The notes under the pieces: generated by a model
What the model was told of the DNA's origin: nothing
The model's database searches: none
The model's input: the letters and a program-made list of their open reading frames with translations, nothing else
Made by a program: the position numbers and the translations under genes
In this document: piece by piece, positions 9,926-60,418 of the stretch
How the letters are laid out: every line of letters starts with the position of its first letter
How positions within the stretch are numbered: position 1 is the stretch's first letter
NCBI GenBank assembly: GCA_027459645.1
Contig: DAIDHQ010000040.1
Span: forward strand, 124,001 to 188,000
Source: Vulcanimicrobiota bacterium
GTDB lineage: Bacteria > Vulcanimicrobiota > Vulcanimicrobiia > Vulcanimicrobiales > Vulcanimicrobiaceae
Length of the DNA: 64,000 bases
Reading direction: 5' to 3'

Positions 9926-10019
9926 TGGCGGGAGCGTGTAGGAATCGAACCTACCAGTCGCCTTACGGCGACCTCAGCGATTTTGAAGACCGTGCGGACC
10001 ACCAGACCCGTACGCTCCC
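9926..10019 (-). tRNA. selC: tRNA-Sec (UCA anticodon)
   Basis: GGGAGCGTACGGGTCTGGTGGTCCGCACGGTCTTCAAAATCGCTGAGGTCGCCGTAAGGCGACTGGTAGGTTCGATTCCTACACGCTCCCGCCA: 8-bp acceptor stem GGGAGCGT/ACGCTCCC, anticodon loop CTTCAAA (TCA), long extra arm GTCGCC-GTAA-GGCGAC, T arm with TTCGATT, encoded CCA. selA/selB are in the same window. Confidence 0.96.
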
Positions 10020-47404: not shown

Positions 47405-47440
47405 TTGACATAATGCGAATGTGAATATACATTCGCATTA
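47405..47440 (+). promoter_or_regulatory. Promoter and TetR-type operator of the MFS gene
   Basis: TTGACA (47405-47410), 17 nt, TACATT (47428-47433); perfect 12-bp inverted repeat TAATGCGAATGT-gaatat-ACATTCGCATTA (47411-47440) reaching the ATG. Confidence 0.85.
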
Positions 47441-48657
47441 TGGACTTGTTATGTATCGCCGGCTTCCGCAACTTCGTTCTCGGCGCCCTACTCTCGCAAT
47501 TGGGCGACGTTTGCTTCACGATAGCGCTTCCTTGGCTGGTGCTTCAGATGACGGGCTCCGGCCTCGCGCTCGGGTCGATTCTGCTCACCCTCGCGATCCC
47601 AAGAGCCGCACTGATGCTTGTAGGAGGCGCCATCTCCGACCGCATGCCGGCGCGAACCATCTTGATCGCCGCGAATCTCGCGCTCACCCTGTGCGTCGCG
47701 GCCGTCGCGATGCTCGCCGCGGCCCACGCTCTAGCGCTCTGGATGCTGTATGTCGTTGCCGTCGTTTTCGGTGTGGCCGACGCATTCAGCAATCCAGCGA
47801 TAAAGGTCTTGGTACCGGGTCTCGTCCCGGCGGACGACATCGTTAGAGCCAATTCGCTGCTGCAATCCGCAACGCAATTGTGCTTATTGACAGGCGCCGC
47901 GCTCGCGGGGCTTTTGATCCAGCGTTTCGGTCTGGTTTCAGCGTTTGCCGTCGACGCTTTCAGCTTCGTGTTCCTCATTTTCGCGCTGCTTACCATAGCG
48001 GCTCCCGAAGACGCTCTGGTACAGACAAATAGCATTCTTGCTGCTGTCCGCGACGGTATCGCCTACGTGGCGCGAGACCCGTTGCTACGCATGTTGCTTC
48101 TGGTTGTCGCAAGCGTCAATTTCTGCCTAACGGGTGCGTCGCAAGTCGGCATCGTGACGCTTGTGCACGCCCGCTTTGGATCTGCCGGATACTTCGGCGC
48201 GCTCGTAACGGCTTCGGCGATCGGATCGCTCTTAGGCATCGTGCTAGCCGGCGTATGGAAGCGACGGCGCGCATTGCTGCTCGATGTTTTAGGCGGCGCG
48301 GCGCTACTCGGGCTATGCCTTGCTTCGCTCGCGCTTCCTCTGCCGATCGCATACATCTTTATCGCGTTGGCACTCGGCGGCGCCATCGCCGGTTACCTTA
48401 ATGTATATATTCTTTCTTCGCTGCAAACCGGCGTGCCGCGGGAGATGCTCGGGCGCGTCATGAGTCTCGTTACGCTCTCTTCGATCGGCATTGCACCCGC
48501 GTCGCTCGCTCTGAGCGGTCTGATCGCGCAGCCGCATATAGAGCTGCTCTTTTTGATCGCCGGAGGCGCGCTCGTAGTGGTCTCCATCGTCGGCGTACCT
48601 CTCACCTGGGGCCTGAGCAAGACCATCGTCGCATCCGTAGAGCAGCCCAGCATGTGA
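47440..48657 (+). CDS. MFS transporter
   Basis: Twelve-TM-like hydrophobic protein, NFVLGALLSQLGDVCFTIALPWLVLQMTGS...AISDRMPARTILI. Confidence 0.9.
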   Translation: MDLLCIAGFRNFVLGALLSQLGDVCFTIALPWLVLQMTGSGLALGSILLTLAIPRAALMLVGGAISDRMPARTILIAANLALTLCVAAVAMLAAAHALALWMLYVVAVVFGVADAFSNPAIKVLVPGLVPADDIVRANSLLQSATQLCLLTGAALAGLLIQRFGLVSAFAVDAFSFVFLIFALLTIAAPEDALVQTNSILAAVRDGIAYVARDPLLRMLLLVVASVNFCLTGASQVGIVTLVHARFGSAGYFGALVTASAIGSLLGIVLAGVWKRRRALLLDVLGGAALLGLCLASLALPLPIAYIFIALALGGAIAGYLNVYILSSLQTGVPREMLGRVMSLVTLSSIGIAPASLALSGLIAQPHIELLFLIAGGALVVVSIVGVPLTWGLSKTIVASVEQPSM

Positions 48658-53864: not shown

Positions 53865-54248
53865 GTGTCACGCAAAAAGGCGCTCGTTTTGACGGATCAT
53901 GAGCTTCGGCTCATGGAAGTACTGTGGGAGCGCGGCCGCGCGACGGTCGCCGACGTCGTCGACGTATTGCCGCCGCCACCGCTGGCATACAGCACCGTTC
54001 TCACGACCCTGCGTACGCTCGAAACCAAGGGCTATATCGCGCACGAAGAGGACGGACGGGCGTACGTGTACCATCCGGTCGTCGCTAGAAACGACGCGGC
54101 GAAATCGGCGATGGACCACGTGCTCCATCGATTCTTCGGAAGTTCGCCCGGGAATATGGCCGTCGCGCTGATCGGCGACGGCCGGCTGAGCGACGCGGAA
54201 GTCGAACAAATAAAGCGTTTGCTGCAAAAGCGCAAGGGCACGAAATGA
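53865..54248 (+). CDS. BlaI/MecI/CopY-family repressor
   Basis: LTDHELRLMEVLWERGRATVADVVDVLPPPPLAYSTVLTTLRTLETKGYIAHEEDGRAYVYHPVV; GGAGG before GTG. Confidence 0.92.
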   Translation: MSRKKALVLTDHELRLMEVLWERGRATVADVVDVLPPPPLAYSTVLTTLRTLETKGYIAHEEDGRAYVYHPVVARNDAAKSAMDHVLHRFFGSSPGNMAVALIGDGRLSDAEVEQIKRLLQKRKGTK

Positions 54249-55429
54249 TCTCGTTCTTGCTCACCACGCTATGGCAAGGCGCATTCGTCGTCGGGATCAC
54301 GTTTGCGGTAACGACGGCGATACCCAAAGGTCAGGCGGCAACACGTTATGCCGTATGGTTCGCGGCCCTCGTCGCGCTCGCACTGCTGCCGTTGACTGCG
54401 TTGCTTTCGATCGCTTCACCCTCAGCGATACCGAGTTCGATCGTGCACACGACGACGGTTGCGACGAAGGTAACGCAACAAGCCGCTCGCACTAGCGGGT
54501 CCTGGCTAAGCATCGCTTGGATCGCAGGCGCGCTGTTAAGTCTACTGCGGATCGTCGTAAGCTACGCCCGCATAGCCGCAATTCGTCGTTCCGCCGTTCC
54601 CGCAGATGCGCTCGGGCCACGCGTGATGACTTCCGATCGCCTCGAGATTCCCATCGTGGCCGGCATTATTCGTCCGGTTGTCATCATTCCGGCCCGCTTG
54701 TTACGCGATCTCGACTCAGCCGATCTCCGCTGCATTCTTATTCACGAACGCGCGCACATCTCGCGCCGAGACGTTCTCGGCAACCTGATTCAACGCGTAT
54801 TTGAAGCAGCATTGTTCTTCAACCCATGGGTGTACCTCATCGGCCATCAACTGGTCAACGAACGCGAAGCCGCCTGCGATGATTGGGTCGTGTGCAACGC
54901 CGGCGACCCCGTGCGTTATGCTTCGTGCCTTGCCGCGCTCGGGGGGCAGCAGCGCCCCTTCACGCCTCCTCTGCTCACTCCAAGCGCGATCGGCTCCGGC
55001 CGCATGTTGATCGGTCGCATCGCGCGCATCTTAGACGGAAAGTCGGTCTCCATGAAAACCAATTATCTCGTCGTTTCCGCCGCGGTCGCGCTCTTTGCGT
55101 TGCTCGCATTTGCATTCCAGACGCCTCCCACGATCGCGGCCGTTCGTTCCAGCGCGTGTCCCACGCTACTCGCGTCGGTCGTGAACGCGGTACCGCCCAA
55201 GCTTCCCGACATGTATGCCGCCGCCCATCCGCATGGCTCGGCAGAAGTCGAGGTTACCATTGGAACCAACGGCAAAGCGTCGAACGCTCGCATTCTTAAG
55301 GCCACCGACGCGACCATCGGAAAGGCGGCAGTTAAAGCCGCATTGCAATCCACCTATTCCCCCGCGCGTCGTGACTGCAAAACCGTCTCCGGCAACTTCG
55401 TCTATCACGCCCAATTCGAGTCTCCATAG
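54245..55429 (+). CDS. M56 (BlaR1-like) membrane metallopeptidase with TonB-like C-terminal domain
   Basis: ILIHERAHISRRDVLGNLIQRVFEAALFFNPWVYLIGHQLVNEREAACDDWVV (HExxH); C-terminal AEVEVTIGTNGKASNARILKATDATIGKAAVKAALQSTYSPA. Confidence 0.88.
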   Translation: MISFLLTTLWQGAFVVGITFAVTTAIPKGQAATRYAVWFAALVALALLPLTALLSIASPSAIPSSIVHTTTVATKVTQQAARTSGSWLSIAWIAGALLSLLRIVVSYARIAAIRRSAVPADALGPRVMTSDRLEIPIVAGIIRPVVIIPARLLRDLDSADLRCILIHERAHISRRDVLGNLIQRVFEAALFFNPWVYLIGHQLVNEREAACDDWVVCNAGDPVRYASCLAALGGQQRPFTPPLLTPSAIGSGRMLIGRIARILDGKSVSMKTNYLVVSAAVALFALLAFAFQTPPTIAAVRSSACPTLLASVVNAVPPKLPDMYAAAHPHGSAEVEVTIGTNGKASNARILKATDATIGKAAVKAALQSTYSPARRDCKTVSGNFVYHAQFESP

Positions 55430-55459
55430 CATAAAGCGTGCCGCCGGCTACGGCAGGCG

Positions 55460-55488
55460 TTGACAGCCGGTGTGCGCTCTGCTATAAC
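55460..55488 (+). promoter_or_regulatory. his operon promoter
   Basis: TTGACA (55460-55465), 17-nt spacer, TATAAC (55483-55488). Confidence 0.88.
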
Positions 55489-55497
55489 AGCCGGTAC

Positions 55498-55560
55498 ATG
55501 TTCTTCGTTCACGTCGCCTCGCATCATCACCATCACGGACCGCCCGGTCGCGTGCGATGA
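55498..55560 (+). CDS. hisL: his operon leader peptide
   Basis: ATG..TGA encoding MFFVHVASHHHHHGPPGRVR, five consecutive His codons (CAT CAT CAC CAT CAC), between the promoter and a terminator upstream of hisG. Confidence 0.9.
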   Translation: MFFVHVASHHHHHGPPGRVR

Positions 55561-55593
55561 TCGCTTGACGTAACGAGTCCATCCCAGTTTGGA

Positions 55594-55627
55594 CGAGGTC
55601 GCGATCTTCGCGGCCTCGTTTTTTTTT
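55594..55627 (+). terminator. his attenuator terminator
   Basis: CGAGGTCGCGA-TCT-TCGCGGCCTCG (11 bp, one G-T pair) followed by nine T. Confidence 0.92.
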
Positions 55628-55649: not shown

Positions 55650-56219
55650 ATGATTATCGTCGTTCCGAAAAATCGCGGTTTGGCCGAGCGGGCGGAAAAA
55701 GCTCTCACGAGTGCGGGGATCTCCGCCGGTGCAAAGCGCTGTCGTGTCCGCGGCGAGGACGTTCCCGCGATCGCATCGATGCTGGCGGCACAGGGCGATG
55801 CCGTTCTCGCATTCACCGGCGAGGATCTGCTCGCGGAGTGGCTCGCGGGCGGTTCCGTCCTCGACGGACGCTTGCGGCGCCGAACGGTCGAGTGGTTCGA
55901 CCGCAAAGCGATCTTCGGGAAGCCGTCGCTCTGCCTGGTCACGCCGCCCGACGCCCCGCTTTCGCAAAACCGGCGGCGCGTCGCCATCTGCGCGCGCTAT
56001 GCGAAACTCGCCGAGCCCGAGTTACAACGCATCGAACGCGATCTCGGCATTTCGCTCGAGCGCTCGTATCACCACGGCGCGCTCGAGATTCTCCTCGAGC
56101 ACGGCCTCGCCGACGCCATCGTCGACATCGTGGTCACCGGCTCGACGATCCGCGAACGCGGCTTGCGCATCGTCGACCTCTTTTTTCGCAGCGATCTCGC
56201 TGTGTTGGAGACCGCATGA
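55650..56219 (+). CDS. hisG: ATP phosphoribosyltransferase, short form (divergent)
   Basis: MIIVVPKNRGLAERAEKAL...RRVAICARYAKLAEPELQRIERDLGISLERSYHHGALEILLEHGLADAIVDIVVTGSTIRERGLRIVD; first gene of the his operon. Confidence 0.85.
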   Translation: MIIVVPKNRGLAERAEKALTSAGISAGAKRCRVRGEDVPAIASMLAAQGDAVLAFTGEDLLAEWLAGGSVLDGRLRRRTVEWFDRKAIFGKPSLCLVTPPDAPLSQNRRRVAICARYAKLAEPELQRIERDLGISLERSYHHGALEILLEHGLADAIVDIVVTGSTIRERGLRIVDLFFRSDLAVLETA

Positions 56220-58453: not shown

Positions 58454-59195
58454 GCGCATCGTCGCCTGCCTCGATATCGACGACGGCCGCGTGGTGAAAG
58501 GACGCCGCTTCGAAGCTCTTCGCGATGCCGGTGATCCGGTGGAACTCGCGCGGCGGTACGACCGCGAAGGAGCCGACGAAATCGTCGTTCTCGACATCTC
58601 CGCAACGACGGCGGGCCGCGATTTTTCGGCTTCGACGATTGCCGCGGTGGCGCGTGCGATCTCGATACCGCTCACCGCCGGTGGCGGCATTCGCAGCATC
58701 GACGACGTCGCGCGCATGCTGGATGCCGGCGCCGACAAAGTGTCTATCAATAGCGCGGCATTTTCGGACCCGGCGTTACTCACGCGCGCCGCCGAGCGAT
58801 TCGGATCGCAATGCGTGGTGCTCGCGATGGACGTGCGGAAGCGCGAGTCCGGCTATGTGGTGGCCTCACATGGCGGAACGCGCGAGTTACCGATCGATGC
58901 GGTCGCGTGGGCGCGTATCGGCGAGCGCTACGGTGCCGGCGAATTGCTCGTCACGGCCGTCGACCGCGACGGCACGGCCGCGGGCTTCGACTTGGACTTG
59001 CTTCGCCTGATCGGATCGAGCGTTTCGATTCCGTTGGTTGCCTCCGGCGGCGCGCGCGACGCTGCCGCATTCGCCGATGCTTTTCGCGCGGGCGCCGATG
59101 CGGCGCTCGGCGCGTCGATCTTTCACTACCAGCGCACGGGAATACGCGAGGTTAAAGACGCGTGTTCGCAAGCAGGGTTTCAGGTGCGGCCGTGA
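58443..59195 (+). CDS. hisF: Imidazole glycerol phosphate synthase, cyclase subunit
   Basis: KRIVACLDIDDGRVVKGRRFEALRDAGDPVELARRYDREGADEIVVLDI; LTAGGGIRSIDD; GADKVSINSAAF. Confidence 0.96.
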   Translation: MPAKRIVACLDIDDGRVVKGRRFEALRDAGDPVELARRYDREGADEIVVLDISATTAGRDFSASTIAAVARAISIPLTAGGGIRSIDDVARMLDAGADKVSINSAAFSDPALLTRAAERFGSQCVVLAMDVRKRESGYVVASHGGTRELPIDAVAWARIGERYGAGELLVTAVDRDGTAAGFDLDLLRLIGSSVSIPLVASGGARDAAAFADAFRAGADAALGASIFHYQRTGIREVKDACSQAGFQVRP

Positions 59196-60418
59196 TCGTT
59201 TGCAGCATCGATTTGATCAACGGCAAGGCCGTGCAGTTGCAACAAGGGCAACGGCTGGTGCTCGAACGGGATGACGTCGTCGCGATCGCAGAACGCTTCG
59301 GGCGTTTGGGTGAGGTCGCCGTGATCGATCTCGACGCAGCGATGAATCGCGGAAGCAACCGCGAGCTGATCGAAGCGCTATGCCGCATCGCACCGTGCCG
59401 CGTGGGGGGCGGCATCCGTGATGCGGAGACGGCCCGGCGATACATGCGCGCGGGCGCACGGCGCGTGATCTTGGGAACCGCGGCGACGCCGGAACTGCTG
59501 CGCTTGCTTCCACGCGATCGAACGATCGTCGCCATCGACGCACGCGGTAATCGCGTCGCAACCCACGGGTGGCGAGTTCTCCAGAACGAGTCGCCCGAAG
59601 AACGCGCGGCGCGTCTGGCACCATACTGCAGCGGCTTTCTCTTCACCGACGTCGAGCGCGAAGGTATGCTCGGCGGAATCGATATCGATCGGATGCGCGC
59701 TTTGCGTGGCGCGATCGACGGAACGCTCACCGTCGCCGGCGGCATCCGTTCGGTTGCGGAAATCCGCGCGCTCGACGCACTCGGCATCGACGCGCAGGTC
59801 GGCATGGCGGTGTATACGAGCGTGCTCGATCCCATCGAAGCGTTCGTCGCGCTGGTCGATTTCGAAAAAGGCGACGGACTCGTTCCCACGGTCGTCTGCG
59901 ACGACGAAGACGGCTCGGTCCGCATGACCGCCTATTCCAGCGCGGATTCGCTTCGCGTCGCGCTGCGCGAAGGTATCGGCGCGTACTGGAGCCGTTCGCG
60001 ACGCGAACTGTGGCGCAAAGGCGAAACTAGCGGAAACCGGCAACGGCTGCGGCGCGTGCAGATCGACTGCGATCGCGATGCGCTGATCTTCCGCGTCGAA
60101 CAAGCCGGGCCGACGTGCCACTCCGGCGAAGCGCGCTGCTTTTCACAGACCACCTTTTCGTGGAACGATCTTCTCGGCCGAATCGCGCAACGCGCGCGCA
60201 GCGGCGGCACGGATTCATACACGAACGCGCTACTCGCCGATGCGAAATTTCTCGAAGTGAAATTGCTGGAAGAGGCGCAAGAGGTCGCCGACGCACGGAC
60301 GCGCGACGAGGTTGCGTGGGAATGCGCCGACCTGCTGTACTTTATGTCGGTGAAGATGCAGGCGTCCGGCGTCGGCATCGACGACGTCATGTATCAATTG
60401 GCGGCACGCGCGCGATGA
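59192..60418 (+). CDS. Predicted trifunctional HisA-HisI-HisE fusion (ProFAR isomerase / PRA-CH / PRA-PH)
   Basis: HisA part VIVCSIDLINGKAVQLQQG...VGGGIRDAETARRYM...VAGGIRS; HisI part YWSRSRRELWRKGETSGNRQRLRRVQIDCDRDALIFRVEQAGPTCHSGEARCF; HisE part SYTNALLADAKFLEVKLLEEAQEVADARTRDEVAWECADLLYFMSVKMQASGV. One continuous frame; GTG overlaps the hisF stop. Confidence 0.92.
   Translation: MIVCSIDLINGKAVQLQQGQRLVLERDDVVAIAERFGRLGEVAVIDLDAAMNRGSNRELIEALCRIAPCRVGGGIRDAETARRYMRAGARRVILGTAATPELLRLLPRDRTIVAIDARGNRVATHGWRVLQNESPEERAARLAPYCSGFLFTDVEREGMLGGIDIDRMRALRGAIDGTLTVAGGIRSVAEIRALDALGIDAQVGMAVYTSVLDPIEAFVALVDFEKGDGLVPTVVCDDEDGSVRMTAYSSADSLRVALREGIGAYWSRSRRELWRKGETSGNRQRLRRVQIDCDRDALIFRVEQAGPTCHSGEARCFSQTTFSWNDLLGRIAQRARSGGTDSYTNALLADAKFLEVKLLEEAQEVADARTRDEVAWECADLLYFMSVKMQASGVGIDDVMYQLAARAR

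Follow-up and report, generated by a model that had tools for sequence, protein, structure and literature searches.

A candidate histidine attenuator whose leader peptide is predicted to be translated from a nearly leaderless transcript in a Vulcanimicrobiota genome

The stretch of DNA analysed here (64,000 nucleotides, hereafter the window) comes from a 3.14 Mb MAG; among its named relatives, the closest bear the label Candidatus Eremiobacterota. It carries a complete his operon, hisG-C-B-H-F-A/I/E-D, which runs to 61650 and whose other his families were, like hisG, recognized by Pfam. HisA, HisI (PRA-CH) and HisE (PRA-PH) are fused in a single 418-aa ORF (59162-60418, plus strand). Directly upstream, the his promoter is adjoined by genes for a BlaI-type repressor and for a BlaR1-like M56 peptidase that has a C-terminal TonB domain (53865-55429, plus strand). 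Elsewhere, the window holds a selenocysteine tRNA gene (9930-10019, minus strand, 69 bits). The following features lie between the peptidase gene and the operon, up to and including its first gene:

55460-55465, plus strand: -35 box TTGACA, a perfect match to the consensus
55480-55488, plus strand: extended -10 element TGC TATAAC (hexamer TATAAC at 55483-55488), with TG one base 5' of the hexamer
55495-55497, plus strand: putative start of transcription (T55495 or A55496) with a 5'UTR of 2-3 nt, deduced from the -10-to-start spacing
55498-55560, plus strand: ORF of the his leader peptide, MFFVHVASHHHHHGPPGRVR*, with its His run at 55522-55536 and homologous leaders in eight other loci
55534-55541, plus strand: arm 1 of hairpin 1:2, CACGGACC, overlapping the last His codon, with covariation across nine loci
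55546-55554, plus strand: arm 2 of hairpin 1:2, GGTCGCGTG (GGTCgCGTG), just 5' of the leader stop codon and a possible arm of the antiterminator
55592-55627, plus strand: intrinsic terminator, a 13-pair hairpin (55592-55620) followed by a T run
55650-56219, plus strand: hisG, first gene of the operon (Pfam PF01634)

The -35 and -10 boxes are separated by a spacer of 17 nt, and together they match TTGACA/TATAAT at 11 of 12 positions, the runner-up within about 310 nt reaching 7/12. The full promoter pattern occurs without mismatch once in the window, at the his promoter, and with up to two mismatches three times against 1.27 expected by chance. Our generic promoter scan skipped the his promoter solely because it required a T at position 6 of the -10 box. 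A preliminary description of this DNA had placed the end of TATAAC at 55488 and the beginning of the leader ATG at 55498; both positions are borne out, and the nine nucleotides AGCCGGTAC lie between the hexamer and the ATG (55498-55500). Transcription usually begins 7-8 nt past the end of the -10 box, so the start would fall at T55495 or A55496 and leave a 5'UTR of 2-3 nt. For comparison, the mean spacer in Streptomyces lividans is 6.3 nt (PMC8079986).

The same arrangement recurs in relatives. In all, nine leaders were found in five genera of one family, each located before the hisG of one divergent lineage, and all nine loci are from MAGs. The window and four further loci were found through HisG homology alone, with neither promoter nor leader used in the search, and all five share the geometry; the remaining four were added by a covariance model built with the promoter in it. 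The nine loci have 9, 11, 11, 9, 9, 9, 12, 12 and 11 nt between -10 and ATG, the -35 and -10 boxes are 17-18 nt apart, and the start codon is ATG in 9/9. The -35 box reads TTGAC[A/G] in eight of the nine (TTGCAT in the ninth), TG and TATA are invariant, and TATAA is present in 8/9. Three nucleotides 5' of the ATG, eight loci have Y|A, and the window has T|AC there. Because the flank upstream of the -35 box is not conserved (mean 0.31 bit over the nine loci), the promoter itself is taken to be under selection. As far as can be read from these alignments, we consider the promoter-leader layout confirmed as real and conserved, the 5' end itself being a prediction.

No Shine-Dalgarno sequence was detected in the 30 nt 5' of the leader ATG, nor in the predicted UTRs of any of the nine loci. 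The best pairing of the 16S 3' end within the 25 nt 5' of the ATG amounts to -3.1 kcal/mol, compared with -7.1 for the hisG of the same genome. The UTR of about 3 nt lacking a Shine-Dalgarno that had been proposed earlier is therefore in line with our prediction of 2-3 nt, with this weak pairing and with the shared geometry of eight further loci. We also looked for another start codon. There is no in-frame start codon between the promoter and the leader ATG; the sole in-frame upstream candidate, a GTG at 55438, precedes the promoter, and in the G031 locus a stop codon stands immediately 5' of the leader ATG. A different start was rejected, and the ATG at 55498 is kept as the predicted initiation codon of the leader.

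A short UTR is not the sole way to read this region. The leader of an ordinary his attenuator could be translated mostly from a longer RNA, one supplied by a cryptic upstream promoter or by readthrough out of the M56-peptidase gene; the UTR would then be long and initiation Shine-Dalgarno-independent, without being leaderless. The peptidase gene is co-directional and ends at 55429, 30 nt before the -35 box, and we found no terminator between it and the his promoter. Against such a longer RNA stand the lack of a Shine-Dalgarno over the last 30 nt ahead of the ATG, the poor match of other nearby promoters (at most 7/12) and the absence of anything conserved 5' of the -35 box in the nine loci, and we judge this reading quite improbable.

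The leader ORF of the window contains a run of five His codons, and the other eight leaders have 4-6 consecutive His. These in-frame runs lie about 8-11 codons past the ATG, their flanks have diverged, and they are always found directly before hisG. Downstream, two structures covary, hairpin 1:2 and the terminator. Taken together, 94.6% of their cells are paired in the nine loci, both sides have changed in nine pairs, and no shuffle or slid register equals their pairing score; for the terminator, compensatory change is seen at 7/13 pairs. The fold of the leader RNA is far better than that of shuffled sequences (z -4.6), and its first 9 nt, including the AUG, are unpaired. The alternative 2:3 antiterminator appears weaker: 71% of its cells are paired in the nine loci, which is the best among slid registers, without double changes. 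This pairing is strong in G077 and weak in the window, and folding without constraints prefers the terminator over the antiterminator. A single 2:3 register derived from G077 fitted the window poorly and was discarded; GATCGC/GCGATC is another possible pairing there. From this we infer that a switch between the two states may exist.

With arm 1 at the last His codon and arm 2 before the stop codon, the two arms sit at the points at which a ribosome would act on stalling or on finishing. This bears on another explanation, that the His-rich ORF is untranslated and the region works as some other RNA switch or simply as a terminator. No Rfam family matches the region, and translation of the leader is itself predicted from sequence. 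Nevertheless, in-frame runs of 4-6 His codons at nine loci with diverged flanks, directly before hisG, and a placement of the two arms that is the one attenuation needs make it highly implausible that the ORF goes untranslated.

We think it likely, instead, that the region is a ribosome-mediated his attenuator with a leader peptide made from an mRNA that is nearly leaderless. In such a system, RNA polymerase would start 2-3 nt, or at most a few nt, before the leader AUG, and a ribosome would load at the 5' end with no help from a Shine-Dalgarno. Under a shortage of charged His-tRNA, this ribosome would stall at the five His codons and cover arm 1, which would release arm 2 for pairing with the terminator's 5' arm and so allow transcription of the operon. 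With plentiful histidine, the ribosome would reach the stop codon beside arm 2, the terminator would form, and transcription would end before hisG. If no ribosome initiated, hairpin 1:2 and the terminator would both form, so that loading at the 5' end would be needed for induction.

Leaderless starts are probably not confined to this operon. In about 369 kb of the genome, comprising 273 genes by simple gene calls, TANNNT stands 6-7 nt ahead of the start codon in 18 cases where 3.5 are expected (P 3e-8), and strong -10 boxes at 9-12 nt, as in the his leaders, occur 7 times against 1.5 expected in the same sample. A Shine-Dalgarno peak is also present in the same genome, and leaderless starts seem, from these counts, to form a real minority class. 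The only other strict TTGAC-TATAA-ATG match of the genome (L029, G000:C39:41276) drives an FmdB-like zinc-ribbon ORF, also with 9 nt from -10 to ATG. A leaderless candidate lies within the window (47405-47442, plus strand), where TTGACA is followed by TATACATTCGCATT-ATG. In this case an inverted repeat, AATGCGAATGT/ACATTCGCATT, occupies the spacer and the -10 box, and a leaderless-like GTG start diverges on the other strand; the region looks like an autoregulated divergent promoter.

Since the 9-12 nt spacing of the his leaders exceeds the strict-leaderless peak at 6-7 nt, a UTR of 2-5 nt is likelier than one of zero. This leaves room for a transcript that is nearly leaderless and whose AUG is found by ordinary 30S binding, aided by downstream sequence, with no true 70S mechanism. 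The predicted UTR of 2-5 nt rather than zero, set beside strict leaderless genes with their -10 at 6-7 nt, is what speaks for it, yet such a UTR would offer the 30S subunit nearly no upstream contact. The leaderless route prefers AUG. This codon starts all nine leaders, a point against 30S binding that sequence alone does not make decisive. On balance, 30S recognition of the leader AUG seems unlikely to us. A bolder extension of the near-leaderless attenuator is that the start is itself part of the control, the attenuator sensing not only charged His-tRNA but also the ease of 70S loading at a bare 5' AUG, which would account for the retention of the near-leaderless start despite the divergence of the leaders. 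If that were so, hairpin 1:2 and the terminator would close the operon whenever loading failed, and stress favouring 70S loading could induce it; we regard this extension as speculative and unlikely.

The window shares a short leader ORF with a His run, an adjoining hairpin 1:2 and a terminator before hisG with the hisL leaders of E. coli and Salmonella (RF00514). The Rfam model RF00514 (His_leader) nonetheless gave no match in the window, either at the gathering score or at E 5. The preliminary description contrasted the locus with the textbook system, and this contrast stands with respect to distance: by our reading, 38 nt separate the -10 box (TAGGTT) of E. coli hisL from its ATG, versus 9 here. 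As a general departure from known attenuation it was overstated, because leaderless leader peptides have already been reported, and leaderless initiation at our locus is a prediction. LeuL, TrpL (TrpL1) and IlvL of S. lividans are leaderless (PMC8079986), as are the leader peptides of ilvBNC in C. glutamicum (PMC11857589) and of ilvB in C. diphtheriae (PMC5784534). Like the his leader, these trp, leu and ilv leaders of Streptomyces and Corynebacterium have the peptide at or very near the 5' end of the RNA, no Shine-Dalgarno and an attenuator downstream; they differ in serving other amino acids and in belonging to the Actinobacteria. In Sinorhizobium meliloti, the AUG of the trpL (rnTrpL) leader peptide is the very start of the attenuated RNA (PMC7298713); this system differs in responding to Trp, in being alphaproteobacterial and in being strictly leaderless. 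In mycobacteria, leaderless poly-Cys short ORFs are described as controlling the downstream operon (Canestrari et al., 2020, cited in PMC9031893). Like our predicted leader, they are short leaderless ORFs in which codons for the sensed amino acid follow one another in a run; they differ in sensing Cys and, by that review's account, in acting on translation of the downstream genes.

Among his systems, the Firmicutes attenuators described in PMC9413887 have a His-rich leader, a terminator and an antiterminator before his operons and are unmatched by RF00514; going by that description, they share the layout and the RF00514 mismatch with the window and differ in phylum. A His leader peptide is lacking in C. 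glutamicum (PMC3896937), and in a comparative survey no conserved RNA structures turned up ahead of actinobacterial his operons (PMC1262725). We found no report of a leaderless his attenuator in the literature searched, where subscription papers were thinly covered. What is new, then, is a his attenuator with a near-leaderless leader in this phylum, leaderless leaders for other amino acids being known already and the leaderless reading being likely rather than proven. It extends classic amino-acid attenuation, in a form whose sensor peptide is nearly leaderless, to a phylum that has hardly been studied experimentally, and the amino acid concerned, histidine, is that of the textbook system. If confirmed, it would mean that his attenuation needs no Shine-Dalgarno and that leaderless sensing arose or spread in one more lineage.

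A HisG profile search separated two clear classes, the nine loci of this lineage versus 49 genomes with weak matches (<40 bits). The leader is present at all nine loci (one HisG is cut by a contig end), and none was found in the 49 genomes; within the class, no HisG of this lineage was found to lack a leader. Searches of the phylum for his leaders that have a Shine-Dalgarno or a longer UTR gave many matches, and none of the loci fetched held a genuine one. The two short in-frame His ORFs at these loci were set aside: by our reading, one is an apparent out-of-frame coding stretch and the other the last part of a Fur-like protein. We saw no short His-rich ORFs close to the divergent HisG genes that relatives carry. 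In the genome of the window, neither trpE nor a leuA-like gene has an obvious attenuator in front of it.

The divergent-lineage HisG is patchy in the family (L121, L003, L122, L002, L123, L124 and L125 versus L127-L148) and always accompanied by a His leader, whereas most relatives have a very different HisG without one. A genome of the same genus, G001 (83% complete), gave no match. This pattern suggests that the his operon moves, or is lost, along with its attenuator. One genome, G103, has two different His leaders with hisG (L057, L062), and the hisG behind the second seems frame-shifted near its N-terminus.
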